Of a stretch of 64,000 bases of DNA, positions 18,403 to 52,779 are shown piece after piece. The stretch is from contig CM077151.1 of NCBI GenBank assembly GCA_039583875.1, forward strand, positions 117,281,519 through 117,345,518. Direction: 5' to 3'. Position numbers and translations under genes: made by a program. The notes below the pieces were generated by a model. The model made no database searches and was not told the DNA's origin. It saw nothing but the letters and a program-made list of their open reading frames with translations. Numbering within the stretch: position 1 is the first letter of the stretch; each line of letters begins with the position of its first letter. Origin of the DNA: Platanthera guangdongensis. Taxonomy: Eukaryota; Streptophyta; Magnoliopsida; Asparagales; Orchidaceae.

Positions 18403-18486
18403 CTATAAGATTAAATATATGACTAAGGGAAAAGAACGTTGACATTTAGATCATACCTAGAAAATAAAACTAGGTTAGGATCTAAC
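18403..18486 (-). other. Candidate gag-protease intron of GYP-C (84 bp)
   Basis: On the minus strand GTTAGA (18486) ... CTTATAG (18403). The upstream frame ends in codons for V-I-S plus the first G of the next codon; read unspliced it hits TAG immediately after GGT. With the 84 bp removed the frame enters the protease (K-F-K-V then PFDSG) with no stop. Alternative AG sites exist inside (for example TTTTCTAG), but only this one gives the conserved phase and position seen in GYP-D and GYP-F. Confidence 0.65.
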
Positions 18487-18576
18487 CTGAAATAACTTGG
18501 GTCGACGTCTGAGCTTCATCCGCGGACACCACGTTCAACTTGCCCTTCCCTTTGTCCAAGAGCTGCGGTGGCGGCA
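18487..18576 (-). pseudogene. GYP-C gag, last coding segment
   Basis: Codes for the Pro/Lys/Ser-rich end of gag (PPPQLLDKGKGKLN and onwards) on the minus strand up to the candidate donor at 18486. It is the direct continuation of 40706-41840 across the GYP-D insertion. Confidence 0.75.
18572..18576. repeat. TSD of GYP-D, left copy (CGGCA)
   Basis: CGGCA here and at 40701-40705, immediately outside TGTAACATCC and GGTCTTACA. Confidence 0.92.
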
Positions 18577-18654
18577 TGTAACATCCCATGTTACTTCTAG
18601 ACCTCTTAACTTAGATTGGGTTAGGCATGGGGTGGGTTTTATGGAAACTAGCTA

Positions 18655-19025
18655 GGTTTGACCCTAGGTAGTGGGTTGTAGTCATGTGGGGCCCACTATA
18701 GGACCAAGTCAAACTAGGTCAAACTAGCCTAAATAAGGACCATAGCTACACCATGACCCCACCACATTGCCCTAACCCTAAAAACAATCTAAGTGGACCC
18801 TAGGGCATGTTACTAGGTCAACACTTTGACCCGAGTTGACCAAAGTCAACCTTGGGCCTAATTTGGTCAAACCCACACTCATAAGCACAATTAGCCTAAG
18901 TAGGGCACCCCCTTGACCCAACCCAAGTTGGGTGGTGCCACTAAGCTCATGACCATCAAATGGGGTCAGCCCACTCATCATGTTGACTAAGTCAACTCTC
19001 CAAGTCAACAAGTCAACTATTTGAC
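18655..19025. promoter_or_regulatory. TTGAC (W-box core) cluster in GYP-D U3
   Basis: By hand I count 14 TTGAC cores, on either strand, within about 370 bp; chance expectation is about 0.7. Many are in head-to-head pairs such as TGTTGACTAAGTCAACT. TTGAC(C/T) is the W-box bound by WRKY factors. The same cluster is present in the 3' LTR (26325-26695). Confidence 0.7.
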
Positions 19026-19494
19026 CTAAAAGAGGGAAATGAAGACCAAGCCACCCTCCCTTGGGCTAAGCCCACCAAACTTAGCCCATGCCCAGCCTAA
19101 GGCACCAAAGACCATCCCTACCCCTCTTATTGAGGAGAGAGAATGCATGCAAGGGGCATTATGGAGAAATCACCTAAAAGGAGGAGAGAGAAATGGAATA
19201 TGATGAGAGGTGGCCATGTGGCCTTCACTCCTTCAGCCTAAAAGATGCTGGCCGACCTCCTCACATCATTACAGAAGGAATTAAGGGCTGAGAGCCACTT
19301 GGCAAGCATGGGCGGAGCAACCAAGGCTGAGCCCGAGCTCACCTTGGTTGTATCTCCCCATATACCCCACCCCAGCCCCAATTAACCCCTCCATCAGCTT
19401 CAGAGAGAGAGAAGGAATTGAAATCGAGTGCTGGAACATGGAAATCGGTGGAGAATCAAGCAATCGGGGAGGAGCTCGCCGGCGCACCACCACC

Positions 19495-19536
19495 ATGGCA
19501 AACTGCCGCCTGAACCGCCTCCAAGCCCCAATCCAG
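19495..19536 (+). other. Candidate LTR-encoded gag leader exon (GYP-D)
   Basis: ACCACCATGGCA gives an ATG in ideal context, followed by 13 codons rich in Arg, ending CAG before GTCCGT. The 3' LTR copy (27164-27205) encodes the basic form M-A-N-R-R-L-N-R-R. Phase would fit an acceptor at 21630. The donor is not ideal, and an in-frame ATG at 21616 offers a simpler start, so this is weaker than in GYP-E and GYP-F. Confidence 0.35.
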
Positions 19537-21431
19537 GTCCGTTTCACCTCACCTCTACCCGTACTAGGATCCTAGATCAATTAGGTAAGATATCAGGCTC
19601 AATTGAGCCCGATTCCATGGGAGAAAGGAGTGATTTTTCCAAGCTTTCTTAACCGCTCGGGATCGCCGTCGCTGTCGTCTCCCGCCGCCCCATCACCGGG
19701 AAACGATAGCCACCACCACAGTGAAGGTGATGGCACCATTGGCCGGGGTGGCGCCGCCTCAGCTGGCCGGAAAAAGCCAGCAAAGATGCTCCAGGTCGGC
19801 TCGATCTCAGCCGTTGGCTGGAGGAAGGAGATAGCCCGATTTCGTCCATTCCTGCTTTAGGATTCGGGCAGATGAAATATTATGATTTAAATTTAAATAA
19901 TATGAATAGTGTATTTCTGTCACAAATATACAGGAACATTGCATGTGATATTTAGGGTACATAGATGCATCATCACAACTTCAACCCTGAATGACAAATG
20001 TAGCTTTATCTGTTAGCTTTAATTTGACACCTTAATTATCAATTTTGGTCCAGTAGTCAGGCCTGTAGGGTATTTTTCCTAGGACTGTTCCTAGACAAGG
20101 GCATAACTTGATTTGGATGCCCAAGTCAAACCAGTACGGTGCACCAGGCGGTACTGGATGTTCGTCACACCGATGGCAGTACAGTTCACCAGGCGGTTGT
20201 GAGGGTTAGAGCGGCCAGTGGGTTGTTTTACACTGCGGTCTGGAGGACGATCCTCGATAACGCACATCCGACCAAACAAGACTGACGGGTTGTCAGCAAA
20301 GTGCGTACGTGAGACTCTAGAGTGCACCTTGAACGTGTACAAAGGCATATAAGAGGGGTCTAAGGCTTGGTAGTGTGCATACCGGCCTAGAAGCGGAGAA
20401 GCCCACTCCGCTGCTGCCGTAGCCACAGCGGTGGTACCCAAGAGTGATGCTAGCTCTCAAAAAGTGGGAACTAAAGGTCTGTGATCACAGAGTCGTTGTG
20501 CGTGAGTTGCACTTGCCTGTGCATAAAATTCCATCATAACATTCATTCATATTAAATCATACGCTTCATAGATCCTTATCATATAAACTAGTATGGGCTC
20601 TTTTATATGATAAGTTAAATTTCCTGGAAATCCTAACTTATATATTTGTATGGGCATTTATATAAGTTAGGGTACTTTTGTGATGGTAGTATAGTGGTAG
20701 AATAGTTTTTATTTATATGCTCTTACTTTTTGTTCTATACTTCCTTTACTAGTACTGCTCTTTACTTACTTCTACCACACTTAGAACTGCTAGAGTAGAA
20801 TTTATAATATCCATTATAACTGCTAGTTAGATCTTGTCACATGTTTCCACCTTTGCTACCCCTTATTGTCCTCCGCTTCGTCCTCCCGCTCGGTGCCTAG
20901 GAGTTGCGGGGCGAGGTGCGGAGGAAACGACTTAGTCTTTTTGATTAATGGTCGGTGACCATACTATTTTTAGGAGCCCGTGGAGATGGAGCACCAGCAC
21001 GTCGAGGAGATAGGACTTGAGGAGCAGATACTGCTACAGTAGGCTACTACCACTACTATGCGTCCTCAGGTGGGACGAGTTCTGATGTATTAGAATAGCT
21101 TCCGCTTTTATTTGAGAGAGAGAGTTGATTTGATGTACTGGGCATAAGCCCTTATTACTCTTTCGTTTTGTACTCTTTTGTGGACTATGTTGATGTACTT
21201 TTCATTTCATTCATATGATATGTACTATGTGACTTGTGGACTAGTGGATTGATATACTGCTTTACTTCTTCTTCTCATATTGGCCTACAGGTTAAATGAT
21301 CGTATTAGCCGGCAGAATCGGCGTGTTGCGGTATCGACTAACTCGTGCGTTAGTGTCGCCGTAAGACGGCGGTTCTAGGCATAAGACCCGGTAGCCCTCC
21401 TTGTTAAGGGGGAGGGAGGGGTCTTACAAAC

Positions 21432-22692: not shown

Positions 22693-22793
22693 GTACTTAA
22701 GGATAATTATTAAATTCCTTGAGTTTTCAATTATATAGTACCTGGAACTATAGGGTAACAATTAATTTTAACATAAACAAACCTCATGCATAG
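22693..22793 (+). other. Candidate gag-protease intron of GYP-D (101 bp)
   Basis: GTACTT (22693) ... ATGCATAG (22793), AT-rich. Unspliced, the gag frame continues for one Thr codon and stops at TAA (22697-22699). Removing the 101 bp joins the first G of a codon (22692) to TT, then ATG ATC..., in frame with the protease that follows. Position and phase match GYP-C, GYP-E and GYP-F, although the sequences inside are unrelated. Confidence 0.7.
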
Positions 22794-25700
22794 TTATGAT
22801 CAGCGGCAAGCCCGCACATACTCTCTTCGACACGGGTGCTTCGCACTCGTTCGTATCTGAGGCCTTCATAGATGGACTTGAAGGCATGGAAAGATTTCCG
22901 GGACTAGAGATGAGGGTGCGTCTACCCGATGGGTCAGAACTGTGGACCACTGCCCATTGTGATATGGAGGCCGAGATTGGCGTCAAGGCATTTGAGGCGC
23001 TAGCAACTATTCTGAAGCTGCAGGACTTCGACTTGATTTTGGGCATGACATGGTTACATCGGAACTATGCTCAGATAGATTGTCCAACAAGGAGGATCAC
23101 ACTAAGGCATGGCGACTCCCATGTTATCATCGAAGGTATTCAGCCTATCTGCCACCTTTTGTTATCTTCTGTATAGGCTGTGAAGGCCCACGAGCAGGGA
23201 TAAGAAGTTTACCTTATCTACTTTGAGATGGTGGGAGCATAGACTTCTATTTCAGATATTCTGGTGGTCCGGGATTTCTCCGACGTATTCCCGGAGAAGT
23301 TGCCCGGGCTACCACCAGCCAGAGACTTGGATTTCAGGATTTAGCTAGTACCGGGAGCGAGGCCGGTGTCCCGGGCACCTTATAGGATGGCTCCCAGGGA
23401 GTTAGCAGAGTTCAGGACTCAACTTCAGTAGCCAGTCGAGTCGGGATTTGTGCGGCCCAGTTCATCGCCGTGGGGAGCTCCAGTTCTCTTTGTGAAGAAG
23501 AAGGACGGGTCATTGCGACTATGTATAGATTACCGGGAGCTAAACCGGTTAACGGTCCGCAATACCTACCCACTGCCTTGGATAGATGAGCTTTTTGACC
23601 ATCTGCAGGGAGCCTTTTGGTTCTCTAAGCTAGATTTGCGATCCGGTTACTACCAGCTTCGCATACGGGAAGAGGACATACCGAAGACGGCATTCAGTTC
23701 ACGCTATGGATTATACGAGTTCACGGTGATGCCTTTTGGGCTTACGAATGCCCCTGCCGCATTCATGAGTCTAATGAACCGTGTATTCGAGCCCTTCTTA
23801 GACCGCTTCGTGATTGTATTCATCGACGACATTTTGATATATTCCCGGACTCAGGAAGAGCATACAAAGCATTTGACACTGGTCTTGCAGAGGCTGAGGG
23901 AGTCCCAGATGTACGCAAAGTTTTCAAAGTGCCAGTTCTCGCTGCAGGAGGTGGCTTTCCTGGGACACACGATCAGTGGGTCTGGATTAGCAGTGGAGCC
24001 AGCCAAGATAGAGACAGTGAGGGATTAGCCATGGCCGAAGACCGTATCCGACATTCGCAGTTTCTTGGGACTAGCAGGGTATTATCGTAAGTTCGTGGAG
24101 GGGTTCTCGAGGATAGCACTCCCCCTCACGTCCTTGACGAAGAAGGATGCAGATTTTGTTTGGTCAGAGCGGTGCGAGACAGCTTTTCAGGAGCTGAAGG
24201 ACCGACTCATCTCATCCCCTTTTCTTGCGCTTCCATCCGGGAGTGAAGGATTTCAGATCTACACAGATGCCTCTTACCAGGGGATGGGTGCTGTCCTGAT
24301 GCAGCATGGACATGTTATTACTTATGCTTCGAGACAGTTGAAGAAATATGAGCATAACTATCCAGTACATGACTTAGAGCTCGGGGCTGTGGTATTCGCC
24401 CTAAAGATGTGGAGACATTACTTATACGGGATTCATTATGATATTTATTCAGATTACAAGAATCTTAAATATACGACAGAGGAGATGGCTGGAATTCCTC
24501 TACGACTATGATTATAAGATCCACTACCATCCGGGGAAGGCAAATACGGTAGCAGATGCTTTGAGTAGGAGGGTCGGCATTTCTGGACCGGAGCCTCAGT
24601 TGATGTCTATAGAGCTGCTACGGATGATGGAAGACATGCACATTACCATGGTATCTGAGGCCAAACCAGTGGTATATCGAGAGTATTTGAGCTCAGTGAT
24701 CAGTGGTGATGACATACGAGAGCGCATTCGAACACATCAGAGGCTGGATGCTGCATTACAGCCGATTTTTAGTGCCATGGAAAGGGGCAAGGTTGAGGAC
24801 TACACGCTACAGGATGATATTCTTCGATTCCGTGGACGCATTTACATACCAGCAGGGGGCAGTATCCGGGATGACATACTCAGAGAGGCTCATTGCTGAA
24901 GATATTCAGTGCATCCCGGCATCACCAAGATGTGGGCAGATTTGCGGAGGTCTATGTATTGGCCTGGGATGAAGAGGGAGATCACTCATTTTGTGACATT
25001 TTGCGAGACATGTCAGCGTATGAAGGCGGAATGTAAGAGCCCAGGAGGTTTGCTATAGCCACTGCCAGTCCCAGAGTGAAAGTTCGAGGACATTGCTATG
25101 GATTTTGTGCACGGACTACCTCGCTCCCACTCTGGGCATGATTCTATATGGGTCATAGTAGACAGACTGACCAAGGTAGCGCGCTTTATTCCAGTTCGGA
25201 AGGATGCCCCAGTTGTGGTTCTGGTGAGATTATTTGTGGAGCAGTTCGTCAGATATCATGGCATTCCTAGGACGATTGTTTCGGACCGTGATAGTCGGTT
25301 CACTTCGAGCGAGTGGAGGGCCGTGCATGCATACTTGGGCTCTCAGCTTACTTTTAGTACTTCCTTCCATCCGCAGACCGACGGACAGACCGAGCGGACC
25401 ATCCGGACCATGGAGGATCTACTCCAACTGTGCATATTGGATACAGGGAAGCCTTGGGAAAGGCTACTACCACTGATTGAGCTCTCGTACAATAACAGCC
25501 ACTAGGCTAGCATCGGGATGGCTCCATATGAGGCACTTTATGGGAGGAGATGCCAGGCACTGCTATCATGGGTTCAGGACATGGACACTCGAACTCTTGG
25601 TTCTGATTTTGTGGAAGACATGGAGGTTTAGATTCGTTTGATCAGGGATCGGCTACTAGAGGCCCAGAGCAGGCAGGCAAAGTATTATGATGCTCGGCAC

Positions 25701-26224: not shown

Positions 26225-26324
26225 ATTTTTTTTGTTTATAGGATTTGTAACATCCCATGTTACTTCTAGACCTCTTAACTTAGATTGGGTTAGGCATGGG
26301 GTGGGTTTTAGGGAAACTAGCTAG

Positions 26325-26695
26325 GTTTGACCCTAGGTAGTGGGTTGTAGTCATGTGGGGCCCACTATAGGACAAAGTCAAACTAGGTCAAACTAGCCTA
26401 AATAAGGACCCTAGCTACACCATGACCCCACCACATTGTCCTAACCCTAAAAACAATCTAAGTGGACCCTAGGGCATGTCACTAGGTCAACACTTTGACC
26501 CCAGTTGACCAAAGTCAACCTTGGGCGTAATTTGGTCAAACCCACACTCATAAGCCCAATTAGCCTAAGTAGGGCACCCCATTGACCCAACCCAAGTTGG
26601 GTGGTGCCACTAAGCTCATGACCATCAAATGGGGTCAGCCCACTCATCATGTTTACTAAGTCAACACTCCAAGTCAACAAGTCAACTATTTGACC
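26325..26695. promoter_or_regulatory. TTGAC (W-box core) cluster, 3' LTR copy
   Basis: Same cluster as at 18655-19025, with almost all cores retained despite substitutions around them. Confidence 0.7.
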
Positions 26696-27163
26696 TAAAA
26701 GAGTGAAATGAAGACCAAGCCACCCTCCCTTGGGCTAAGCCCACCAAACTTGGCCCATGCCCAGCCCAAGGCACAAAAGACCAGCCCTACCCCTCTGGTT
26801 GAGGATAGAGAATGCATGCAAGGGGGCATTATGGATAAATCACCTAAAAGGAGGAGAGAGAAATGGAATATGATGAGAGGTGGCCATGTGGCCCTCACTC
26901 CTTCAGCCCAAAAGATGCTGGCCGACCTCCTCACATCATTCCAGAAGGAATTAAGGGCTGAGAGCCACTTGGCAAGCATGGGCGGAGCAACCAAGGCTGA
27001 GCCCGAGCACACCTTGGTTGTATCTCCCCATATACCCCACCCCATCCCCAATTAACCCCTCCATCAGCTTCAGAGAGAAATAAGGAATTGAATCGAGTGC
27101 TGGAACATGGAAATCGGTGGAGAATCAAGCAATCGGGGAGGAGCTCGTCGGCGCACCACCACC

Positions 27164-27205
27164 ATGGCAAACCGCCGCCTGAACCGCCGCCAAGCCCCAA
27201 TCCAG
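27164..27205 (+). other. Candidate LTR-encoded gag leader exon, 3' LTR copy
   Basis: ATG plus 13 codons ending CAG before GTCCGT. This copy keeps Arg where the 5' LTR copy has Cys and Leu. Confidence 0.35.
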
Positions 27206-27803
27206 GTCCGTTTCACCTCACCTCTACCCGTACTAGGATCCTAGATCAATTAGGTGAGATATTGGGCTCAATTGAGCCCGATGCCATGGGAGAAAGGAGT
27301 GATTTTTCCAAGCTTTCTTAACCGCTCGGGATCGTCGTCGCCGCCATCTCCCGCCGCCCCATCACCGGGAAACGATAGCCACCAACACCGTGAAGGTGAT
27401 GGCACCGTTGGCCGGGGGTGGCGCCGTCTCAGCTGGCCGGAAAAAGCCAGCAAAGATGCTCCAGGTCGGCTCGATCTCAGTCGTTGGCTGGAGGAAGGAG
27501 ATAACCCGATCCCATCCATTCCTGCTTTAGGATTCGGGCAGATGAAATATTATGATTTAAATTTAAATAATATGAATAGTGTATTTCTGTCACAAATATA
27601 CAGTCACATTGCATGTGATATTTAGGGTACATAGAGGCATCATAACAACTTTAACCCTGAATAAAATATGTAGCTTATCTGTTAGATTTAATTTGACACC
27701 TTAATCATCAATTGTGGTCCAGTAGTCTGGCCTGTATGGTATTTTTCCTAGGACTGGTCCTAGACAAGGGCATAACTTCATTTGGATGCCCAAGTCAAAC
27801 CAG

Positions 27804-29970
27804 TAATCAACATGACCCCAAATTTTGAGTACATGCATGATTAGGGCATATCTAGCCCCTGCCAAAACTTGAGAATTTTGGGGGATATATTTCCTATAGT
27901 TTTATTCAAAATACATAAAACGAAATTAATGGAATATTTGGATTATTAGGGCTCCAAATGGCCCCACGTTTTTGTGGCTTGTACTTAAGGACATTATAAA
28001 TATATGTTTTAAATTTCATCAAGTTTGGACCAATGTATGGTGAGTAATCCCACATGCAAATGTTGGACATGTTTAGGCTTCGCGTGCCAATAGTAATTTT
28101 TGAAATTTTGAGTATTAGGCCCCTTTGGATCATGCAAAATTCATGTAATTAATTTCAGTGGCCTATTAGGATGGGTTTTACCCCTCATTGAAATAATGGG
28201 ATTTTTGGAATCAAAAATCTCATTATTTGGAATTAAGTTTGTCACTTAGTTATTTTTGAAATTAAGTTTGTCACTTAGTTATTTCCCCAAATTTTGTCAA
28301 GGACAATATCATGACATGTTTAACTCCTGAAAATTTTTATGTCTCTGTTTGAGGAATATTGATAAGAGAAATGTGGAAATTACATTTTTGCCCTTATTTC
28401 TTTTAATTTAAAATTAATGCAAATACTCAGTAGAAAATTATGAAAACATTATTGATGACATATCTGAATATAAATAACCTTAATTAATTTTCTCAGCATT
28501 TTTGGATGAATCATAAATTTTTAAATCTTCATAATGTCATTTTGGGAAATTATTTAGAAATAAAAATATAGCTCCTTTTGAAAATAAATTGGAAAAAAAT
28601 AGGTTTTTCTCAAGTAAAAATCCTCAAACTTTGCCAAGTTAAAAAGAAGGTTATATTTGACTTAGGAAAATTTGATCATTCTGTTTGAAGAACTTCTGGA
28701 GTAAAATATCTTGAAATGACAATTTTACCCTTATTGCATTTATTCATGAATTGATGGAAATAGACATCAGAAAAATTTGGAAATATTGCTAGTGTTGTAT
28801 AATTGTACTATTAGTCTTGCATAATTATTTCAGAATTTATGGATGTACTGATAATTTTAAATTAATATAATGGCATTTTGGTACATATTTAAGAATGGGA
28901 TTTGTGAGGCCATTACTCTATAGAGGTTGATGAAACTATGCCATTATTCCTAAATTAATGCCTTATATGTTCTGTAATTTTGTTGGAATTTTGGCTTATA
29001 TATTCCTTGTACTTCATTTGGAAAATGGGAATTATGTAGACTTAGTATTAAATAAGGAATTGGTATAAATTATCAAAGGAAAATTGTGAAACCCTGTAGA
29101 CAGAAATAGTTTATCAATATACAACTCAAGAAAAATTATCTAGGTCAGTGGAGTTTAAATTATACTACTTCATGTGTAAATTGACCTAGGAATTATTTAA
29201 AAGATTTAATTAAGGGATTAATTGACCAAGGAAAATTATGAGAATCCATATGATAGTTCCATTAGTCCATACCAACCAAAGATAAATAGTTAGGGGCAAG
29301 AGGCCCTAAGAATTGGAAGATTCCATTTTTGGGGTAATAATAGGACATTGTCTGCATATAGCATAAATAGGTCATGCTTTAGGGGATTACCAGAGGATTG
29401 GTTATCGGAAGAATAAGGGAGTGCAATAAGAATAATCCATGGTGGGTAATATTGTCTTAGTGATGGGAGTAAAAGTGCAAGTCTTTAGGTAGCAACCGGA
29501 GTGGAGGTCGACAGAAGACCGTCGGTTTCCCGGTAATATCTTAAGTCACTAGGATTGTTCCAGAGCAACATTGAGAGCTGGGGTAAAATATGGGTAGTCA
29601 TCAACTAAAGTAAATAACCTTGCGAAAGGGAACTTTGGGCGTAATCCCATCGTAGTTCCTAGTGCCCCCGAGAGCCCTTCACTGGGTATACCCGGGCAGT
29701 CCTGGGATTAACCTTAAATCACTAAGTTAAATAACTCGTAGACAAGAGTAGTCTAATAGGTTAAGACATTTATTGTACCTTCTCACCCGTGTAGTGTTGG
29801 AGAGTTTCATGATATATGCTCACCCGTATAGGGTTTGAGGGGATTGGTATAAAGGCACTATTGTGCGTTCTCACCCAAGCTTGGTTTGAGGGTTTTAGGA
29901 CGGGTTTGGTCCTGCGAGCAGAAGGCTCGGAATAAAATACTTGCATGTGCATAAATATAGTGGCGGGGCA
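27804..29970 (+). repeat. 2.15-kb AT-rich LTR block absent from the 5' LTR
   Basis: AT-rich sequence with no supported reading frame; its last 500 bp contain loosely repeated TTCTCACCC-containing phrases (29780-29880). No TG...CA ends and no TSD are seen at its edges, which favours a deletion from the 5' LTR over an insertion here. Confidence 0.7.
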
Positions 29971-29975: not shown

Positions 29976-31261
29976 TGTAACACCACCTATCCGTCGCATA
30001 GCATATAGTAGTAGGTTCGGCCGGGGCCCGACACCATATACCACAGACAAACCGGGTGGTTACTTATGGAAACCATCCAACCAATCTCAACGTCCTACAC
30101 AGAGCATTCTAGCGGAAGTAGTTTATAAAAGTTGCATACAAGAACCCAACATCGAAGCACGAATGTCCACTAATACAAAACATAAATGTTATACAAAATA
30201 CCCAAAACAAGTCTTAAGGCCTTACAAAATGTTTCACTTGAATATTACATGTTTTACAAACCACGGCACGCAGGCCAGTCATACATGAATAAAACAGTAA
30301 ACACTTCCATTTGGGCCTTCGAGGGCCGGCTTCGCAAAAAGGGCTTTAGCCCGCTATTGACCGCTTGGTCCAGCTGCACCTGCAAGCAACAAACCACCGC
30401 ACGGTGGCAAAATAAGGCAACGGTCAGCAATGCTGACCAAATTATAACGATCCCGCCCCCAACTCGGTGCGGCGATGCTCCTTCCCTGCATTTCATTAGC
30501 ATAAGCGAGCAATGTATATCAATAGCCATTTCACCACAGACGTTGGCTCGCACGGCCACACGCCCCGTGCACTCAGGGCACATTCTCGGTGAACCGGTCG
30601 ATGTCACGTCAATCAAAGCCATAGACATTCCGGACTCACCACCGCCACTTGGACGGCCAAACCTATGAGCAATTTGTCTTCCCGGCCTGGGTCACGATAA
30701 TTTAAGCCATTGACCGCCGAAGACCCTACTCTATGCCAACGGTAAGTGCCACGTGCCTTTAGGTCTCTTTAACCGAACGGCATAGAACGGGTACGGTTCC
30801 ATCTAACCCATGCTCACATCGCAACGACAATTTAAGCCATTTGCGCGGGTCAAACTTCCACCGAGTCCCATTTCCATCACAAGTCACATAACCCTGTTAT
30901 GTTCAAGTTGGCTCTCAAGCCACAAAGTTGGCAAGATCTCGTATCCGCCTAGTTTTCCGGGTGCACCTTTGGGTTAATCCCCAAGGCTCCCTGCTGCAAT
31001 CTACTGCGTAGAAAACCCGAAAAACAACCAATAGCACGGAGTCTTCTCCGGCCTTAAGCAATGCAACATCACCGATCCAGACTAACATGTCCGGGTAGGC
31101 TTCACACATCATGCCTATGTCCGTTCTCGCATACGGACTCTAAACAACGGGGACTTCACATATCTACCCGAAGGAACGCCTCCAACTCTCCGCAAACTCG
31201 CGAGAGCGGGCTTCCTATGCTAAGAAAGAGAGCTATTCGTGCTCAAGATGAGGATCGTTAC

Positions 31262-31285
31262 CCTTGAGTTCCTCTTTGGCGCCAT
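31262..31285 (-). other. Candidate gag first coding exon, 3' LTR copy
   Basis: On the minus strand ATG plus seven codons (A-P-K-R-N-S-R), followed by GTAACG. Identical to the 5' LTR copy at 38402-38425. Confidence 0.6.
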
Positions 31286-31574
31286 TGAAAAGTAATCGGA
31301 TGGAAATCACCGCACTAGCGTTGCCTCCATGGATCCGGAGTCGGCTTGCGATTCGGAGCTCCGAAGCTCCTCCAATGGCGGGATCTAGCTCTTCTTCCAC
31401 CCTTGGCTCTCCTCTCTCTCTAAGGATTTAGAGAGATGATAAGTGAAGAAAAGTAAGGGTTTTCTAAGTCAAAACCCGGGTATATCCCTTCAGGAACAAC
31501 CCCTAGCCGTTTGATCTCAACATAAGGAAACGAACGGCTTTGATTCGGGGCTGAAATGCCCAATCTGGACCGAA

Positions 31575-32215
31575 CACGGCCTGGCACACGCCCGTATCCA
31601 GGGCCGTGTGCCTCATTCGCCGTCAAAATCGAATCACCTGGAACCTCACACGGGTATCGAACACGCCCGTGTTCGAGCTGACACGCCCGTGTTCCACCTG
31701 ACATGGCCTTGTGATCGGCCGTGTACCCCATGATTTTTCCCCATTTTCAACCCGAGCACTGCACGGGTTCTAGGACACGCCCGTGTCCTTACCCGTATCA
31801 CATTGACACGCCTGGGCCCCAGGCCGTGTACACGGGACACTTCGTCGAGTGAAGATCGACGACTTGATGACACGGCCTTGGACATGCCCGTGTCCTAGGC
31901 CGTGTGCCTTGTCTCGACGATCGTCGAGCGAATCTCGACGACTCCCCAGGACGATCGTCGACACGGGTCGACACGCCCTGCGACACGCCCGTGTCACAGG
32001 CCGTGTGCACACTCTCGACGAATCGTCGAGTAAATCTCGACGACTTCACGGCTAAGTGTCGACACGGGTCGACACGCCCTGCGACACGCCCGTGTCGCAG
32101 GCCGTGTGCCCACTCTCGACGAATCGTCGAGTAAATCTCAACGTATTCGCGGCTAAGTGTCGACACATGCTTGACACGCCCTGGGGCACGCCCGTGTCCC
32201 AGGCCGTGTGCCTGC
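31575..32215. repeat. ACACGGGCGTGT and TCGACGA array, GYP-F 3' LTR
   Basis: Many dyads of ACACGCCCGTGTC and GACACGGGCGTG type, interleaved with CTCGACGA/TCGTCGAG dyads. Matches 38715-39355. Confidence 0.88.
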
Positions 32216-32278
32216 TGCCAAAACCCAAACTGGCCCAAAACATCCCTCTTTTGCTCCTATGAGTTTCGGGGCGTTACA

Positions 32279-32297
32279 ACTCTCCCCCTCTTAAAAG
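32279..32297 (-). other. GYP-F polypurine tract
   Basis: On the minus strand CTTTTAAGAGGGGGAGAGT, directly upstream of TGTAACGCC of the 3' LTR. Confidence 0.85.
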
Positions 32298-32315
32298 AAT
32301 TTCGCCCACGAAATT
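32298..32315 (-). other. PPT-proximal hairpin of GYP-F
   Basis: On the minus strand AATTTCGTGGGCGAAATT, 7-bp arms and 4-nt loop. A similar hairpin with a purine run also lies just after the PBS (37059-37076). Confidence 0.8.
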
Positions 32316-35300
32316 AAATAGAGGAAAGACATGTACAAAACCAAATTTTGTACCTGAGCGGAACAACTCCGGATACTCGTCAAGCATAGTCTGCTCTCGC
32401 TCCCAAGAGAGCTCCTCACGACCGCAATTGTCCCACCGGACCTTGACCATCCTGATCTCTTTATTGCGTAGCCGCTTGACCTCCGAGTCCTCGATCCGCA
32501 CGGGCTTGACCTTTGTCGTTAGCCCACTATCCACTGGCACTTGATCAACCGCGATCACTTGCGTAGGCTCTTGCACCGCCTTCCGAAGCACCGAAATATG
32601 GAATACATCATGTAAACCACTAAGCTCCACTGAGAGCTTCAACCTATAGGACGCTTCACCAACTCGCTCCAGAACCTCAAATGGTCCAAGGTACCTTGGG
32701 CTTAGCTTTTTCAATCGCCGCACCCGCGAGACACCCTTGAACGGCTTGACATTATAGTACTTTGCTTGCCGGTCCTGAGTGATAAGCAACCTCTCCCGAA
32801 TATTTCTCACCAAAGAAGTAGCATCCTCCACTCCTGATCGCTTATACAACTTTGACTCACCCGTTTCTAACCAAGACAACGGCGTGCGACATCTTCTACC
32901 ATATAGGGCCTCGAAGGGCGCCATCTGAATACTTGCTTGGTAGCTATTGTTGTATGCGAACTCCACCAAATAAAGTGGTCTTCCCATTGCTTTCCAAAAT
33001 CCAAGACACACATGCGAAGCATGTCTTCCATGGTTCTATTGACCCTCTCGGTCTGCCCATCCGTTTGCGGATGGAAGGCTGTGCTAAACTTTAGCTTTGT
33101 TCCCAGCATTTGCTGTACCAGCCTCCAATCATTGGACGTGAACCGCCCATCTCGGTCACTCACGATGCTGCGGGGCACACCATGAAGCCGTACTATATTA
33201 TCCACATAAAGCTTTGCCAGCTTCTCCACCGGATCATCCTTCCTATGCGGAATAAAATGCGACACCTTCGTTAATCGATCAACAAACACCCAAATGGCGT
33301 CGTTTCCCTTTTGCGACCTTGGCAAACCGTGCACAAAGTCCATAGAGATGTCGTCGAATTTCCACTCCGGAATAGGCAAGGACTTAAGAAATCCTCCCGG
33401 CTTTTGGCACTCCGCCTTTACCAAGGCTCAGGTTTGGCACTTCGCTACGTATAGCGCCACATCCTTCTTCAAACCCGGCCACCAAAACAGTTTCTTCACA
33501 TCACGGTACATCTTCGTGCTCCCCGGGTGAATCAAGTACTTGGTATGGTGTGCCTCGTACAACAACTCCACCCGTAAATTGACCACACTTGGGATGCACA
33601 ATCGACCGTCTTTCCAAAGCAATCCGTCCTACACGATGAATTGGGAATTTGACCCATCCAGAGCCTCTATCATGAATTGCTTCATATGAGCATCCATATC
33701 CAAAGCCTGCCGAATACGATCAGCCAGGTCATATTGGACTTCAGTCCAATTCAGAACTGCTTCAGCACTTGATTGTCTGTCCACACAAACAATCTCCAAC
33801 GCCTCCAACTCTCGCACCAACCGCTCATCGTGCACCGATAGCCAATTGTCTTGAGCTGGGGCTCAGCTACTCAGCGCATCCGCAACCACATTCCCTTTGC
33901 CAGGCACGTAGTGGATCTTGAATGTATAGTCCCCCAGGAACTCCATCCACCTACGCTGCCGCATATTCAGATCCTTCTGATCAATAAGGTACTTCAGGCT
34001 CTTGTGATCGGTGTAGATATCAATCTTCACACCGTACAAATAGTGTCTCCACAGTTTCAAGGCAAAAATCACGGCCGCTAACTCCAAGTCATGGACCGGA
34101 TAATTTCTCTCGTGCACTTTTAGCTGTCTCGAGCCATAAGCTATCACGCTTTCGTGCTGCAGTAGCACGCAACCCAAACCGCTGCCTGAAGCATCGCTAT
34201 ATATCTCATAGACTTCGGTTCCACATGGCGAACTCAGCACAGGCGTCGTGGTCAACCGACACTTCAACTCCTCAAAAGCTCGCGCGCACTCCGGCGTCCA
34301 AACGAACTTATGCTCCTTCCTCGTCAAAGTAGTGAGAGGTAACGCTATCCGCGAGAAGTTCTCTACGAAGCGCCTATAATAGCCGGCAAGCCCCAAAAAA
34401 GTCTGGAATTCCGCTACAGTAGCAAGCTCAGGCCACTCCCGTATCGCAACAATCTTAGCCGGATCCACAGCAATACCCTCTCCACTTACTATATGCCCGA
34501 GGAACGCCACTGAGGATAACCAAAACTCGCACTTCGAGAACTTGGCATACAACTGATTTCTCCTTAGCGTTTCCAACACCAAATGAAGATGCTTGAAGTG
34601 ATCTTCCTCACTTTGCGAGTACACCAAAATATCGTCGATGAAGACGATCACGAAATGGTCCAAGTATTCCCTGAACGTCCTGTTCATCAAATCCATGAAT
34701 ACTGACGGCGCATTAGTCAGCCCAAACGGCATGACCGTAAACTCATAATGCCCGTATCTCGTACTAAACGCTGTCTTCGGGATATCACTCTCCCTTATTC
34801 GCAGCTGATAGTACCCAGCCTTGAGATCCAACTTCGAGTACACCGTCGACCCGACTAACTGATCAAAGAGATCATCAATCCGGGGGATCGGGTACTTGTT
34901 CTTCTCCGTCAGCTTGTTTAGCTCCCGATAATCAATACATAGCCTCAAGCTTCCGTCCTTCTTCTTAACAAAGAGGACCGGTGCGCTCCAAGGCGAAGAA
35001 CTCGGGCACACATACCCTTGCTCCAACAACTCTTGCAGTTGAACTTTCAGCTCCGCCATTTCCTTAGGCGCTAGCCGATACGGAGATCGTGACACAGGCT
35101 TTGCACCTCGCACTAGCTCGATCGTAAAATCTATCTCCCGCTGAGGCGGGGCTCCAGGAAGATCTGCGGGGAACACATCAGGGTATTCCGATACCACTGA
35201 AATACAATCCAATGCGGGCTTTGGCTTTGCAACCTCCACTAGTGTAAAGAATAGTTCTGCTCCAGCACGAACCGCCTTCACCACCTGAAGAGCAGACATC

Positions 35301-35670
35301 AATGTCTTGCTCGACCCCTTTAAGCCCGTAAACGTCGTCTCACGACTCGCTCCCAGCTTAACTTCCTTGCTACCGCAATCTATATGGGCCTGCTGCTCCG
35401 AGAGCCAGTCCATGCCAAATATGACGTCGAACTCCACTAACGGAAGTAAAGATGCCCGCAGGTCGAACTCCTGCTCCCCAATACGAGTCTTAACATCACA
35501 GATCCTATCCGCTCGCATCGAACACCCATTGGGCAACAACACATCCAACTTATCCTTCGCCATCGAAGAAGGGACTCCGATGCGTGATATAAATCCTTCG
35601 GACAAGAAGGAGTGTGAGGCTCCCGTATCGAAGAGTGCTCGTGCCGGATTTTCACAAATTAATACAAATC

Positions 35671-38401: not shown

Positions 38402-38425
38402 CCTTGAGTTCCTCTTTGGCGCCAT
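38402..38425 (-). other. Candidate gag first coding exon in the 5' LTR (GYP-F)
   Basis: On the minus strand ATG (38425-38423) and codons for A-P-K-R-N-S-R, followed by GTAACG. Basic residues after Met-Ala-Pro are also typical of the gag N-terminus in Tekay/Del elements. Confidence 0.6.
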
Positions 38426-38714
38426 TGAAAAGTAATCGGATGGAAATCACCGCACTAGCGTTGCCTCCGTGGATCCGGAGTCGGCTTGCGATTCGGAGCT
38501 CCGAAGCTCCTCCAATGGCGGGATCTAGCTCTTCTTCCACCCTTGGCTCTCCTCTCTCTCTAAGGATTTAGAGAGATGATAAGTGAAGAAAAGTAAGGGT
38601 TTTCTAAGTCAAAACACGGGTATATCCCTTCAGGAACTACCCCTAGCCGTTGGATCTCAACATAAGGAAATGAACGGCTTTGATTCGGGGCTGAAATGCC
38701 CAATCTGGACCGAA

Positions 38715-39355
38715 CACGGCCTGGCACACGCCCGTGTCCAGGGCCGTGTGCCTCATTCGCCGTCAAAATCGAATCACCTGGAACCTCACACGGGTATCGA
38801 ACACGCCCGTGTTCGAGCTGACACGCCCGTGTTCCACCTGACACGGCCGTGTGATCGGCCGTGTACCCCATGATTTTTCCCCATTTTCAACCCGAGCACT
38901 GCACGGGTTCTAGGACACGCCCGTGTCCTTACCCGTGTCACATTGACACGCCTGGGCCCCAGGCCGTGTACACGGGACACTTCGTCGAGTGAAGATCGAC
39001 GACTTGATGACACGGCCTTGGACACGCCCGTGTCCTAGGCCATGTGCCTTGTCTCGACGATCGTCGAGCGAATCTCGACGACTCCCCGGGACGATCGTCG
39101 ACACGGGTCGACACGCCCTGCGACATGCCCGTGTCGCAGGCCGTGTGCCCACTCTCGACGAATCGTCGAGTAAATCTCGACGACTTCGCGGCTAAGTGTC
39201 GACACGGGTCGACACGCCCTGCGACACGCCCATATCGCAGGCCGTGTGCCCACTCTCGACGAATCGTCGAGTAAATCTCGACGTCTTCGCGGCTAAGTGT
39301 CGACACACACTTGACACGCCCTGGGACACGGCCGTGTCCCAGGCCGTGTGCCTGC
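38715..39355. repeat. ACACGGGCGTGT and TCGACGA array, GYP-F 5' LTR
   Basis: Counterpart of 31575-32215; several CpG sites differ by C/T or G/A between the two. Confidence 0.88.
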
Positions 39356-39418
39356 TGCCAGAACCCAAACTGGCCCAAAACATCCCCCTTTTGCTCCTTT
39401 GAGTTTCGGGGCGTTACA

Positions 39419-39423
39419 TGCGG
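39419..39423. repeat. TSD of GYP-F, right copy (TGCGG)
   Basis: Matches 29971-29975. Confidence 0.93.
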
Positions 39424-40700
39424 TACTGGCCGTTCGTCACACCGATGGCAGTACGGTGCACCAGGCAGTTGTGAGGGTTAGAGGGGCCAGTGGGTTGTTT
39501 TACACTGCGGTCTGGAGGACGATCCCCGATAACGCACATCCGACCCAACAAGACTAACGGGTTGTCAGCAAAGTACGTACGCGAGACTCTAGAGTGCACC
39601 TTGGACGTGTACAGAGGCATATGAGAGGGGTCTAAGGCTTCGTAGTGTGTATACCGGCCTAGAAGCGGAGACGCCCGCTCCGCTGCTGCCGTAGCCACAG
39701 CGGTGGTACCCGAGAGTGATGCTAGCTCTCAAAAAGTGGGAACTAAAGGTCTGTGATCACAGAGTCGTTGTGCGTGAGTTGCACTTGCCTGTGCATAAAA
39801 TTGCATCATAACATTCATTCATATTAGGTCATACGCTTCATAGATCCTTATCATATAAACTAGTATGAGCTCTTTTATATGATAAGTTAAATTTCCTGGA
39901 AATCCTAACTTATATATTTGTATGGGCATTTATATAAGTTAGGGTACTTTTGTTATGGTAGTATAGTGGTAGAATAGTTTTTATTTATATGCTCTTACTT
40001 TCTATTCTTTACTTCCTTTACTAGTACTGCTCTTTACTTACTTATACCACACTTAGAACTGCTAGAGTATAATTTATAATATCCATTATAACTGCTAGTT
40101 AGATCTTGTCACCTGTTTCCACCTTTGCTACCCCTTGTTGTCATCCGCTTCATCCTCCCGCTCAGTGCTTAGGAGTTACGGGGCGAGGTGCGGAGGAAAC
40201 GACTTAGTCTTTTTGACTAATTGTCGGTGAACATACTATTTTTAGGAGCCCGTGGAGATGGAGCACCAGCACGTCGAGCAGACAGGACTTGAGGAGCAAA
40301 TACCGCTACAGCAGGCTACTACCACTACTGTGCGTCCTTAGGTGGGACGAGTTCTGATGTATTAGTATAGCTTCCACTTTTATTTGAGAGAGAGAGTTGA
40401 TTTGATGTACTGGGCATAAGCCCTTATTACTCTTTCGTTTTGTACTCTTTTGTGGACTATGTTGATGTACTTTTCATTTCATTCATATGATATGTACTAT
40501 GTGACTTGTGGACTAGTGGATTGATATACTGCTTTACTTCTTCTTCTCATATTGGCCTACAGGTTAAATGATCGTATTAGCCGGCAGAATTGGCGTGTTG
40601 CGGTGTCGACTAACTCGTGCATTAGTGTCACCGTAAGACGGCGGTTCTGGGCATAAGACCCGGTAGCCCTCCTTGTTAAGGGGGAGGGAGGGGTCTTACA
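39424..40700 (+). repeat. GYP-D 3' LTR, right part
   Basis: Aligns with about 20155-21428 of the 5' LTR and ends GGTCTTACA at the TSD. Confidence 0.92.
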
Positions 40701-40705
40701 CGGCA
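40701..40705. repeat. TSD of GYP-D, right copy (CGGCA)
   Basis: Matches 18572-18576. Confidence 0.92.
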
Positions 40706-41840
40706 AGGCCTGAAGTGGCACTGGCTGCAACGGGGGTTGAGCCTGCAGGCAACGGGTCTTGACATGCCCCTTCCACCCACATAGATAACAAGTCTTATCC
40801 TTCCAGCAATGGATTGTATAATGCCATGTCTTGTTGCAACTGGAACAAACTGATCTCTCTTTGAGGGCGCCCTGAATCGCGTGAACCTGCTCTTGCTTCC
40901 GAGCTCTCAGTCTCTGGTAACATCTCTCGAATGGGTGGTCTACCCGACCACAGAAACTGCACACTTCCTTGTCTCTTTTCTTCCCAATAGTCCCGGATTC
41001 TTGTGATTCCTTACCTTCAACAGACTTCCTCTTATTCTTCCTCATCTGCTGCCCTCTGACCTTGGCATTGTCAATGGATTCCACCTTCAGAGCAGCCTCT
41101 ACCACCTCAGAATAAGTCCCGGATACATAGGAACTGGTAAGCTGCTGGATGCCATTCTGAAGACCACCCAGAAATCACTTAACTCGGTTGGATTCTAAAG
41201 ATACCAAATCAGGAGCAAAGCGGCTCAGCTTACTGAACTCCACTTCGTATTCACTGACAGTAAGCTGCCTCAGCTTTAAGTGAATGAAATAATTCATTAA
41301 CAGGTCTCTTTCCATAGATAGCAAGATCTTTTTAAACAACAACTCCTTGAAGGACTCCCACGAGCATCCATCCTTCAAGCTTTCTTTCTCCCTCAACCAC
41401 CAACTCTTGGCCATGCCCTTGAGTTGATAAGCGACAACCATCACTCTCTGGTTCGCAGAGATACCAGAGTAGGTGAACATCTCCTCGATGGAAATCATCC
41501 AATCATCTAATGCTATAAAATCTTCCTTGCCATCATACGTAGGGGGTCTTAACCTTTGAAAGTTCGAAATAAAAGTCATCTCTAGTGGCAACAATGTCGG
41601 GGGCACCATAGGAGCGGGGGGAACGAGAACAGCTAGATCCATGGTGGGCTCTTGCACCCTCTACTACTGACTCTCCACGACTGATAACAACGACTGAATC
41701 TTCGACTGCATCTCCATCATCTGCCTTGAAAGGGCCTCATTACTCTGTCGCAATCCCTCTATTACAGCCTCACTCTGGGCACCAGAAGATTCTCCCTCCG
41801 ATTGGGCAGTATTCCTCGTCACCGGATGCTTAGGCGACAT
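40706..41840 (-). pseudogene. GYP-C gag with three CCHC knuckles
   Basis: ATG at 41840-41838 (M-S-P-K-H-P-V-T-R), a Ser/Glu/Gln-rich N-terminus, then two adjacent stops near 41663. The Retrotrans_gag domain (41657-41175) has FIALDDWMISIEEMF and the SWWLREK motif. After one more stop (about 41172) the C-terminal half (41105-40706) carries three knuckles in a row, CSFCGRVDHPFERC, CSSCNKTWHYTIHC and CYLCGWKGHVKTRC. Three is unusual; one or two is the rule in plant gypsy elements. Unlike GYP-E and GYP-F this gag has its own ATG downstream of the PBS. Confidence 0.85.
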
Positions 41841-43723: not shown

Positions 43724-43725
43724 CA

Positions 43726-49622: not shown

Positions 49623-49689
49623 TGTAATGCCCCGAAAATTATATTTGAGTTGGTCGCGTAAAAAGGGATTTTGGTGCTTGTATAGGAGT

Positions 49690-50040
49690 ACACGGCATAG
49701 GACACGGGCGTGTCCAAGGCCGTGTCTGGCATGGTGTTTCGGTCGATTTTATCCCGAGAAGGACACGACAAGGAACACGGCTTAATGATACGGGCGTGTC
49801 ATTTGACACGGGCGTGTGCCTACCCGTGTCAGTACCCATGTTCAGCGAGGTTGTGTCAGTTGGCGTGACAGTTATATGTGACACGCCCCCGGACACGGGC
49901 GTGTAGAGGACCCGACACGGGCGTGTCGAGTGAGACACGGGCGTGTCTCAGCCCGTGTGAGTCTCTTGGTTCGATGATCGCTCCTCGATCAAGGCACGCG
50001 ACCTGGGACACGGCCGTGTGCGAGGCCGTGTTCGGCCCAG
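49690..50040. repeat. ACACGGGCGTGT array, GYP-E 5' LTR
   Basis: Dyads such as GACACGGGCGTGTC recur about ten times in 350 bp. Confidence 0.88.
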
Positions 50041-50310
50041 GTCTGGGGATTTTTGTGCAGATCTGAGCTGTTCATTTTCTTTAAGTAAGATCCAATGGTT
50101 CAGACAGTTTCCTACTCTGTTAAGGCTGGGAATAGGGGATTTAGTTCTTCATTTTTCTCCAAACCATTCTCTTTCCAAGGAGTTAGAGAGAGGAGGAAGA
50201 AGAAGGAGGATTCCGGCCGCCGGCAGAGCATCGGAGCACCGTTTTGATATCTGAGAGCGGATCCGTGGAGGAAAGTTCGTTGCGAAGATTTCCATCCGTG
50301 TAGTTTTTCC

Positions 50311-50334
50311 ATGGCGCCAAAGCGTACTATAAGG
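50311..50334 (+). other. Candidate gag first coding exon in the LTR (GYP-E)
   Basis: TCCATGGCGCC provides an ATG and codons for A-P-K-R-T-I-R, followed by GTAACG. The 3' LTR copy (56835-56858) encodes M-A-P-N-R-N-T-R. Confidence 0.6.
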
Positions 50335-51593
50335 GTAACGATTCTCCACTTGAGCATGCGAAGCTCTTCCTTTTTGCATAGGGAAAACCCGCTCCCACGA
50401 GTGTGCGGTGAGTGTGCGGTGTTCCTTGGGGTTGACGGGAATAGTCTCCCTTGCGTTGCATATAGAGTCCGGAATCGAAGTACGGGCATAGGCATTGTGT
50501 GTGAAGCCTACCCGGATATGTTGGTCTGGATCGGTGATGTTGCATTTATTATGATTTGCCGGAGAAGACTCCGTGCTTTGGGTTTTCGGGTTTCTACACT
50601 GTAGATTGCAGCAGGGATCCTTGGAGGGTAGCTCCAAGGCGCACCCGGAAAACTGAGGGGAATCGTTCTTCTGCTGAATTGGCTGTCTGGGAACCGGCCT
50701 TAAAAATAACTGGGTAATGTGATTGTTTGGAAATGGCAGGATCTGAGAGAAGCTTGGCTCGTGCATATGTCTTATGGTGTACTACACGTTGGGAGCAACG
50801 GGCAAGTGGAATCGGATCTGGGCTATGTGGTTCGGTGCGAGAGACCCAAAAAGGGGACTGGCCATTGGCATACTCGGGAGCCTTAGACAGTGGTCAGAAA
50901 GGCTAAATGCTCACATGGTTGCCATCTTGGTGGTGGTGGTGAAGACACTGAAGTGTCAGGATTCACCGTTAATGTGCCCTGAGTGCACGGGGTGTTTGGC
51001 CATGCGAGCCTATACCTGTGGCGAAATGTAATTACACTTTATTATTTAGCTGGGCTAATGTTATGCAGGGAAAGAGCACCGCCGTCCCGAGTAAGGGGCG
51101 GGGTCGTTAAAATTTGGTCGGCTTTTGCTGACCGTTGCATTGTTTGCCACCGTGTGGTGGAATGTGGCTTGCAGGTGCTGTGGAGCCGAGTGCAAGTTAG
51201 CGGGCTGGAGCCCATGTTGCTGTGCTAGCCCTTGAAGGCCGTAAAGAATAATTGTTTTTATTTTGTCATGTGTTGCCGGCCTGCGAGCCGATGTACGTAA
51301 GACACTATCTTATTAAGTGAATATTTGTAAGGCCATAAGGCCGTGTACCCTTTCAGTGTATTTGGTTTTCATTCCTGTTGTATGGATGTGGATATTCATG
51401 ATTATGGATTTAAGTTTTGAGTTCTTTCAACTATTTAAAACCTTCTCCTAGAATGCTCTGTGTAGGACGAGTAGTCTTAATTGGAATGTTTGGTTATTAA
51501 TACGTAACCCTTCTGTTTGTCCGTGGTATATGGCGTTGGGTTCCAGCTAGACCTTCTGTTATATGACATACGATGGATGGGGGTGTTAAAATT

Positions 51594-51603
51594 TGGTATC
51601 AGA
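51594..51603 (+). other. GYP-E primer binding site
   Basis: TGGTATCAGA, initiator tRNA-Met type, three bases after the LTR. Confidence 0.92.
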
Positions 51604-51628
51604 CTTCTGGTTACAGTTAGTCTTAAAT

Positions 51629-51646
51629 GAATTCGTGGTCGAATTC
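51629..51646 (+). other. Leader hairpin of GYP-E
   Basis: GAATTCGTGGTCGAATTC followed by TTTTAAGGGGTGG; same position as in GYP-F (37059-37076). Confidence 0.65.
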
Positions 51647-51814
51647 TTTTAAGGGGTGGTGAGCACATGTGTGCGTCATCGTTATAACATTAAAAATAAC
51701 CCATGAATGTCCACTTAGGAATGAAAAATACATGTGTTTGAGGAACCTGCGTGTTCCTATAATTGCTTTTTGCAATTCCGTTTGGTCACTTATTGGTGTT
51801 TTGTACGACTATAG

Positions 51815-52700
51815 GTGACCGGGAGTGGCGCAGAGCCGATAGAACATCTGGTTTCTGAGGATTATAGTGCACCCAGCGTCGTGCTTGAGACCCCTCCATC
51901 GTTTGAAACCATAATAAGGATTGTTGAAGTGGTGATCGCTGTGACTAGTGCACAGCAGGGAAGCAATGTGCAACCCTTTATCCCTGAGATGACTTCAATG
52001 TCGGGTGGTGTGTTGGATCAAGTGACATTTAGAAGGCCATCAGGTCAGCCTTTGAACATGTGCTTAGTGCAGTGTACACCCTTGGTTGATGAGTATTTGC
52101 AGGAGTTTCTTTTGATAAGCCGCTACCCATGCTTTAGGTTGGAGAACGAGCAGTCTATAGTTGACAGATTCTATAATGGTCTGCGTGACGAACTGCGAAT
52201 TCTACTGCTAGGACCAAAACTATTGGGATTCCGAGCCTTAGTGGAGTCGGCTAGATCTTTGGAAGTAGATATGGGGAAAATTCACCAGATACCAGTGAGT
52301 AGGGTATCGAACTCTACAAGTCCTATGAGGGCTGCATCTCGCAGAACGCTGAAAAAGTGGGTTAGATCATCGAATGGAAAAGTTACTTACAACTGTCATA
52401 CTTATGGCAAGAAAGGGCACTTTGCCCGACATTGTCGTAATGGTGCACAAAAGATAAAGAAATCTAAGACAGCAGCAACCATTGGGAGGAAGGCAATTAT
52501 ATGTTTTAACTGTGCGAAGCCAGGACATTTTGCCCGAAACTGTTGGCGCGGACGACGGAAGTCCGAGAAGAAATCAGGAGATATCTACGAGGAGAAGGGC
52601 AAGGGGTTAGAGGCAACCGCATCGTACTATGCCCCAACCCAACCAAAAGTGTACAACCTTAGCCAGCAAGAAGCCACAAAGCAGTTTGAAGTGGTGATGG
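51815..52700 (+). pseudogene. GYP-E gag with core deletion and two knuckles
   Basis: Open from a GTG directly after an in-frame TAG to the candidate donor. Compared with GYP-F about 100 residues of the Retrotrans_gag core are missing, between the CLVQ and VDEYL stretches (about 52075), without loss of frame. The C-terminal part has two knuckle-like units, CHTYGKKGHFARHC (second Cys replaced by Tyr) and CFNCAKPGHFARNC, suggesting a local duplication. VYNLSQQEA precedes the protease junction. Capsid function is unlikely. Confidence 0.85.
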
Positions 52701-52779
52701 GTATGTATAGCAGGTTTGCTTTAAATATTTGTTTCCTTACGCATTTTAGCCTTTGAATGATTGTGTTATGCTTGTTTAG
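52701..52779 (+). other. Candidate gag-protease intron of GYP-E (79 bp)
   Basis: GTATGTATAG (52701) ... ATGCTTGTTTAG (52779). GTATGT is a strong plant donor, and the 3' end matches GYP-F (TGCTTGTTTAG). Unspliced, gag reads on to TGA at about 52755. The exon after it has lost about 10 bp relative to GYP-F, so the protease frame is no longer restored in this copy. Confidence 0.7.

Follow-up and report, generated by a model that had tools for sequence, protein, structure and literature searches.

A candidate spliceosomal intron at the gag-protease border of several Ty3/gypsy retrotransposon lineages in the orchid Platanthera guangdongensis

The sequence analysed was a stretch of 64,000 nucleotides from the orchid Platanthera guangdongensis (C5:117281519-117345518 of the 4.25-Gb genome; hereafter the window), which contains four Ty3/gypsy retrotransposons named GYP-C, GYP-D, GYP-E and GYP-F. 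Direct reading of the sequence confirmed that each of the four carries an interval between gag and protease beginning with GT and ending with AG. The GYP-F interval (35671..35746, minus strand) is 76 nt long and reads ACAG|GTACGA ... CTTGTTTAG|G in phase 1, and it was aligned among 34 F-family loci, one of which (L031) is the window copy itself. The GYP-C interval (18403..18486, minus strand) is 84 nt long and reads TCAG|GTTAGA ... CTTATAG|G, and that of GYP-E (52701..52779, plus strand) is 79 nt long and reads ATGG|GTATGT ... CTTGTTTAG|A. The AT content of the intervals is 68-73%, compared to 40-53% for the 400 nt flanking them on each side. Every one of the four donors splits a codon behind its first base (phase 1), and in each element a stop ends the gag frame within the interval. 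The gag and protease frames are in phase across it in C, D and F. In GYP-E a deletion directly after the acceptor, 11 nt relative to F by our count, puts the two frames out of phase; this element has also lost the D-T-G of its protease motif and is a dead copy. A first-pass annotation of the window had described the C, E and F intervals with these coordinates, ends and AT-richness, together with the codon break after the first base, the gag stop inside the interval, the in-frame joining in C, D and F and the deletion behind the E interval, all of which was borne out by the direct reading.

For GYP-D the first-pass annotation had given an interval of 101 nt at 22693-22793 on the plus strand. 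The donor and the interval stood, while its end had to be moved: the acceptor of the D family lies 6 nt upstream of 22793, giving an intron of 95 nt at 22693..22787 (plus strand), and 22793 is a fallback AG. In copy L087 this region reads CTCAG|GCATAG, and the AG situated 38 nt upstream of the protease motif is the D-family acceptor; the window copy reads CTCAT, the acceptor AG having changed to AT. The D family has two tandem AGs placed 6 nt apart and both in frame, as seen in L087 and at window positions 22788-22793.

The wider distribution of the interval was examined using a degenerate protease pattern, F-D-(T/S)-G-A-(S/T)-H-S-F, which gave 41,489 matches in the genome against 0 for the reversed pattern. 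From 100 matches listed along one chromosome, 60 protease copies were analysed that had not been chosen for the intron, and these formed 17 clusters at 75% nucleotide identity. An AG was found precisely 38 nt upstream of the motif in 53/60 copies and in the majority of copies in 15 of the 17 clusters. At every other position from -20 to -69, an AG majority was limited to 5 clusters at most. A set of 92 distinct copies was then made up of these 60 copies, 30 F-family loci (one being window F) and the window copies of C and D; window E has no intact motif and falls outside this set, and the sequence surrounding the motif is the same in L047 and L048. Both splice sites could be read in 75 of the 92, using a pattern of ACAG, TCAG, GCAG or TCGG before GT and AG at -38 that partly selects the bases concerned. 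The donors were CAG|GT in 73 copies and CGG|GT in 2, and the acceptors were TAG in 74 and CAG in 1, followed by G in 75/75. Intron length ranged from 71 to 105 nt, with 76 nt the commonest (33 copies), and a gag stop fell within the intron in 74 of the 75 readable copies, no more than 15 nt from the donor in 59 of them. The place, phase and splice consensus of the interval are conserved. The word TGCTTGTTTAG was also counted and occurs 10,830 times in the genome, compared with 1,143 times for its reverse, a figure plausibly inflated by the 3' end of the F-type intron; four of eight loci read were F-type acceptors and the other four were not.

These data bear on two simpler explanations of the interval. 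The first is that a decayed or captured AT-rich insertion has GT and AG at its ends by chance. Some copies are indeed decayed, such as E with its lost protease motif, but the interval occupies the same place in 15/17 clusters and copies exactly lacking it exist, as described below, leaving this explanation a probability close to nil. A chance GT...AG was rejected on the conservation of AG at -38 and on an exonic control, in which a 74-nt stretch of the F protease was found shortened at 0 places and at full length at 5192. The second explanation is translational recoding, in which a frameshift or stop readthrough would join Gag to Pol and the interval would be a mere spacer. Recoding is the usual solution in many long terminal repeat (LTR) elements, and 22 of 74 copies do have a gag frame that overlaps the protease frame. 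In the other 52 there is no overlap, so that a simple frameshift cannot join the frames and recoding was rejected as a general route; the length of the interval modulo 3 is also inconstant (42, 22 and 11 copies), and exactly intronless copies occur in four lineages. Recoding is consequently considered very improbable. Within cluster k2 the protease frame of copies L041, L054, L057, L071, L093 and L096 has no stop for part or all of the intron and overlaps with gag, by more than 60 codons in L054, L093 and L096; in these k2 copies a frameshift is geometrically possible as well.

Copies from which the interval is exactly missing were searched for with two anchors, one from the last bases of the gag exon and one from the first bases of the protease exon, with 0-20 nt allowed between them; reversed patterns gave 0 matches throughout. 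F-type copies of this kind were found at 79 places and all 79 had the exact predicted splice junction, with the two predicted bases. The same anchors separated by an intron-sized gap were found at 8178 places, giving an intronless share of 79/8257 or 0.96%. For the C-type there were 110 intronless places, precisely of the predicted length in 100/100 of those listed, and 4181 intron-bearing ones, a share of 110/4291 or 2.6%. The intron-bearing counts, which were made for the F-type and C-type lineages, comprise perfect-anchor copies only. With a long anchor the D-type gave 8 intronless places, 8/8 of one length that fits the acceptor 6 nt upstream of 22793, and cluster k1 gave 3/3 exact. A D-type search with a 4-base anchor returned 26 places of three lengths, N=8 at 18 (family acceptor), N=2 at 4 (22793 acceptor) and N=15 at 4; with this anchor a single change in the intron could yield any of the three, and only the 8 long-anchor places were counted. 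The four N=2 places fit either use of the second AG or a single change within the intron.

Random deletions would not share one end base 79 times out of 79. At least two of the F-type intronless places coincide with protease hits in a 150-hit set, and the intronless copy at C4:168824243 has the longest open frame of those 150 hits, 1279 aa, the next being about 1168-1170 aa. In terms of what is expected of a GT-AG intron, the splice consensus is present and exact removal is seen indirectly, by way of DNA copies. Because exactly intronless DNA copies occur in four lineages, splicing of element RNA at these sites is indicated, and the copies are best explained as products of such spliced RNA, reverse-transcribed from time to time and integrated. 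The view of the first-pass annotation that these are real introns at a conserved place is thus strongly supported. The converse history would make the intronless copies ancestral, the intron having been inserted recently at an AG|G site, in which case the intronless copies would not be fossils of splicing. It draws on relatives in other plants that have the conserved glycine and no intron, and is judged improbable on three counts: exon-2 variants of the intronless F-type copies (TATTG, TGTTG, TTTTG, TATTA) recur among intron-bearing F-type copies, the intronless copies make up about 1% of the F family, in which the LTRs of the window copy are still 97.5% identical, and the intron and intronless states co-occur in four lineages.

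The arrangement proposed here is that, in several chromovirus-type Ty3/gypsy lineages, a spliceosomal intron of 71-105 nt splits the codon of a glycine where gag borders on protease, and that the host would splice a part of the element transcripts. Unspliced RNA would give Gag, mostly ending within 15 nt past the donor, and would also serve as the genome or packaged RNA, while spliced RNA would encode the Gag-Pol polyprotein; this assignment is suggested by the reading frames. The efficiency of splicing may then set the Gag:Pol ratio, replacing ribosomal frameshifting. Since 99% of the counted F-type copies and 97% of the C-type copies keep the intron, unspliced RNA must be by far the main template for reverse transcription. 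Taken as a whole, a spliceosomal GT-AG intron with Gag and genome from unspliced RNA and Gag-Pol from spliced RNA is given a probability of roughly 0.88. Alternatively the intron could be spliced nearly completely and have some other function, for example in expression or in the export of RNA, with the Gag:Pol ratio set elsewhere. The DNA copies speak for the presence of splicing and not for its extent, and intronless shares of 0.96% and 2.6% say little about RNA ratios if packaging discriminates. The gag stop inside the intron in 74/75 readable copies means that the unspliced form yields Gag alone, and persistence of the intron needs an unspliced genome; on these grounds such a role is judged unlikely.

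Several observations weigh against regulation of Gag and Gag-Pol by splicing. The intronless places are not all independent: the F-type has three pairs, and the C-type at least three, whose members are less than 10 kb apart and may be local duplicates, and with the exception of two F-type protease hits they are defined by the anchor pattern alone. The support for splicing consists of DNA copies and reading frames, from which a possible effect on the Gag:Pol ratio is proposed. The overlapping frames in 22 of 74 copies have a geometry that permits frameshifting. A donor or acceptor could not be read at the expected place in 17 of the 92 copies, window D included, which is what decayed copies would be expected to give; many of these differ by a single change at one site, for example an acceptor AG altered to TTTAA or GTAC, or a donor CAG altered to CAT. 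Finally, relatives in other plants lack the intron, both as open reading frames (ORFs) described below and in Beta vulgaris (PMC3605345; here and in what follows, published systems are cited from excerpts of the papers), and the intron is not universal in its group.

The remaining parts of GYP-F lie on the minus strand. Its gag exon (35747..36890) contains Retrotrans_gag and a zinc knuckle, and the open frame continues to 35739 within the intron. The frame for protease, reverse transcriptase (RT) and RNase H (33866..35670; RVP_2, RVT_1, RT_RNaseH) is free of stops from 35728, also within the intron. Two overlapping reading frames at 32277..33427 encode the integrase core, SH3_Tf2-1 and a weak chromodomain, which was matched with an E value of 0.0014 and 18.9 bits against a curated cut-off of 25.1. 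This gives a domain order of protease, RT, RNase H and integrase, followed by SH3_Tf2-1 and the weak chromodomain match. The 3' LTR (29976..32278) has 97.5% identity to the 5' LTR (37116..39418), with a target-site duplication of TGCGG. GYP-E, on the plus strand, has a gag exon with a zinc knuckle (51815..52700) whose stop-free frame continues to 52753 within the intron, and a 5' LTR (49623..51588) with 92.4% identity to the 3' LTR and a target-site duplication of CATTG; the 3' LTR is given as 56147..58110 from the end of the BLAST match and seems to reach 58112. In GYP-D, also on the plus strand, the protease frame (RVP_2) occupies 22788..23173 when counted from the family acceptor, and the 5' LTR (18577..20136) has 95.8% identity to its 3' partner (26246..27805). 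Both LTRs are thus present in D, F and E, and F and E each have a 5-bp target duplication and the sequence TGGTATCAGA just inside the 5' LTR, which we take to fit the primer site for initiator tRNA-Met.

GYP-C is on the minus strand, with a region for protease (identified by motif, with a stop in frame after 18230), RT and RNase H at 16880..18402. Its gag (40659..41831) was located by tblastn with the Platanthera zijinensis proteins P0033 and P0031; D and F, both nested in the element, lie between it and the protease. The element is accordingly split into 14856-18576 and 40659-41831, with D inserted about 90 nt upstream of the C donor and F further on. A 1284-nt stretch of D that begins just internal to its 5' LTR (20145-21428) recurs directly beside the outer LTR end of F (39417-40700) with 95.8% identity. 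The integrase region of GYP-C contains a 714-nt tandem duplication (15306-16019 and 16017-16729, 92.6% identity). Elsewhere in the window, frames on the minus strand at 1125-5020 resemble a decayed Ty1/copia element with a CCHC gag and integrase, as judged by eye.

The nearest named relatives were proteins of Platanthera zijinensis, with identities of 76% for the F gag, 79-83% for the F protease and 65-87% for four C-type hits. The F-like gag and pol of this species are consecutively numbered models (KSP39_PZI007980 and 007981), and in its C-type models P0031, P0032 and P0033 the residues VISG are directly followed by the protease exon, so that the junction is read through; these may be either spliced models or intronless copies. 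A protein search with the F gag gave one relative, from P. zijinensis, and searches of viral contigs with the F protease and with P0034 gave no relatives. Relatives with uninterrupted gag-protease frames, which the first-pass annotation had named as a finding that would speak against its proposal, do occur in other plants and leave the presence of the intron here standing. ORFs reading through the gag-protease border were P0005, P0020, P0055, P0073, P0080, P0081, P0141 and P0143, from sources that include JGI, a 3.4-kb contig filed under E. coli and a 2.0-kb contig; they are assumed to come from gene callers that do not splice, which is certain only for P0081 (591 aa on a 1829-nt contig). In these ORFs VVTG or a similar sequence leads straight into protease, placing the glycine 14 residues before the catalytic D, the same spacing as is found across the intron in most families here. 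The order of residues over the junction likewise matches that of continuous-frame relatives (VVTG, 13 residues, catalytic D). Protein P0034, from a 5106-nt JGI contig, groups with cluster k14; its frame begins only 3 residues ahead of the protease motif, a start that would be compatible with an intron in that species as well.

In a tree of the protease and the start of RT the intron-bearing rows fell into two groups, F/k1/k2/k5/k11/k15 and k3/k4/k7/k14. A single clade of all intron-bearing rows was rejected, 12 rows versus 10, by the approximately unbiased (AU) test (p 1.6e-12), which was set up after earlier trees had shown two state changes. Among the ten other rows only P0073, P0081, P0141 and P0143 are ORFs continuous over the border; the intron state is unsure in the other six, namely the gene models P0006, P0008, P0018 and P0026, the ORF P0034, whose start falls within the protease, and P0115 with its short pre-protease part. 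The trees used 1-2 copies per cluster and omitted clusters k10, k12 and k16, window C, seven Xanthoceras proteins that hardly differ from one another, and any protein whose motif could not be read (P0082, P0062 and P0045 in the AU test). Rows shorter than 300 aa were left out of the first tree, and in the AU test where they were our own, and rows shorter than 100 aa were left out of the second. The two groups could reflect either one old intron lost elsewhere or two gains at the same AG|G site, and exchange between elements within one particle would be a third route. A broader possibility, held tentatively and with more doubt than confidence, is that plant chromoviruses have long used this intron, homologous throughout, to regulate Gag against Gag-Pol. 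Two non-sister groups in this plant would have retained it, and retrotransposition of spliced RNA would have removed it elsewhere, a process that would be in progress here in 1-3% of copies; the single-frame chromoviruses of other plants would then be intronless descendants.

No report of a gag-protease intron in chromoviruses was found in the open-licence literature searched. A 2025 review describes plant LTR elements as generally lacking introns, with Ogre and EVADE as notable exceptions, in the portion cited (PMC12786077). The intron and its precise losses suggest how these elements may set their Gag:Pol ratio. They bear on the question of how Gag can be produced in large excess over Pol by plant Ty3/gypsy elements, most of which look like a single frame. 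One genome here has the intron in several abundant families, DNA sequence by itself is enough to reveal its removal, and the anchors used for this also give the frequency with which spliced RNA enters new copies. Thousands of natural replicates thereby become available for testing Gag:Pol ratios set by splicing, the discrimination of packaging against spliced RNA, and the gain and loss of introns.

Among known systems, the Tekay chromoviruses of Beta vulgaris, such as Bongo, share the homologous gag-protease border and the domain order gag, protease, RT, RNase H and integrase, followed by a chromodomain that is a weak match in GYP-F, with the present elements, for which 'Tekay-like' is the label of the first-pass annotation; in Beta, as described in the excerpt, gag and pol form a single continuous frame where an intron is found here (PMC3605345). 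A Tat-like element of Phalaenopsis is likewise described with gag and pol in one frame (PMC9289625, in part). A layout of the frameshift type, with overlapping frames, was seen in 22/74 copies and absent from 52/74. The intronless copies have a parallel in human LINE-1 elements, where no gag-pol intron is involved. In the spliced integrated retrotransposed elements (SpIREs) of LINE-1, spliced element RNA was reverse-transcribed and integrated (PMC5860796, in part), as is suggested here.

Alternative introns near the gag-protease border that control Gag against Gag-Pol are described for two Ty1/copia elements: BARE1 of barley has a U-rich intron of 104 nt, CAG/GTAT ... CAG/GA, at about this border (PMC3735527), and in EVADE of Arabidopsis shGAG splicing sets Gag against Gag-Pol (PMC12786077). 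According to the same excerpts their logic is the reverse of that proposed here, the unspliced RNA giving Gag-Pol and the spliced RNA only Gag. The window elements have the gypsy domain order, and with the gag stop inside the intron it is their spliced form that can encode Gag-Pol. Amplification from barley DNA yielded no DNA copies of spliced BARE RNA in the work excerpted (PMC3735527), whereas 0.96% and 2.6% of the counted copies in two lineages are intronless here. Bianca, again of Ty1/copia and hence of another superfamily, resembles the present elements in that a spacer with a mean length of 172 bp lies between its two frames; the cited text does not mention splicing for it (PMC6317226, in part). 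A similar logic is seen in Ogre of the Tat lineage of Ty3/gypsy, known from pea and Medicago, in which, as the excerpt has it, an intron between two polyprotein frames is spliced from a part of the transcripts to give the whole polyprotein (PMC6317226). The Ogre intron lies between protease and RT, while the intervals in the window precede protease, between it and gag, and are 71-105 nt long across the readable copies; Ogre is moreover a non-chromovirus, of a lineage with an extra RNase H; GYP-F has SH3_Tf2-1 and a weak chromodomain match. The gag-protease intron thus resembles Ogre in its logic and differs from it in lineage and position.

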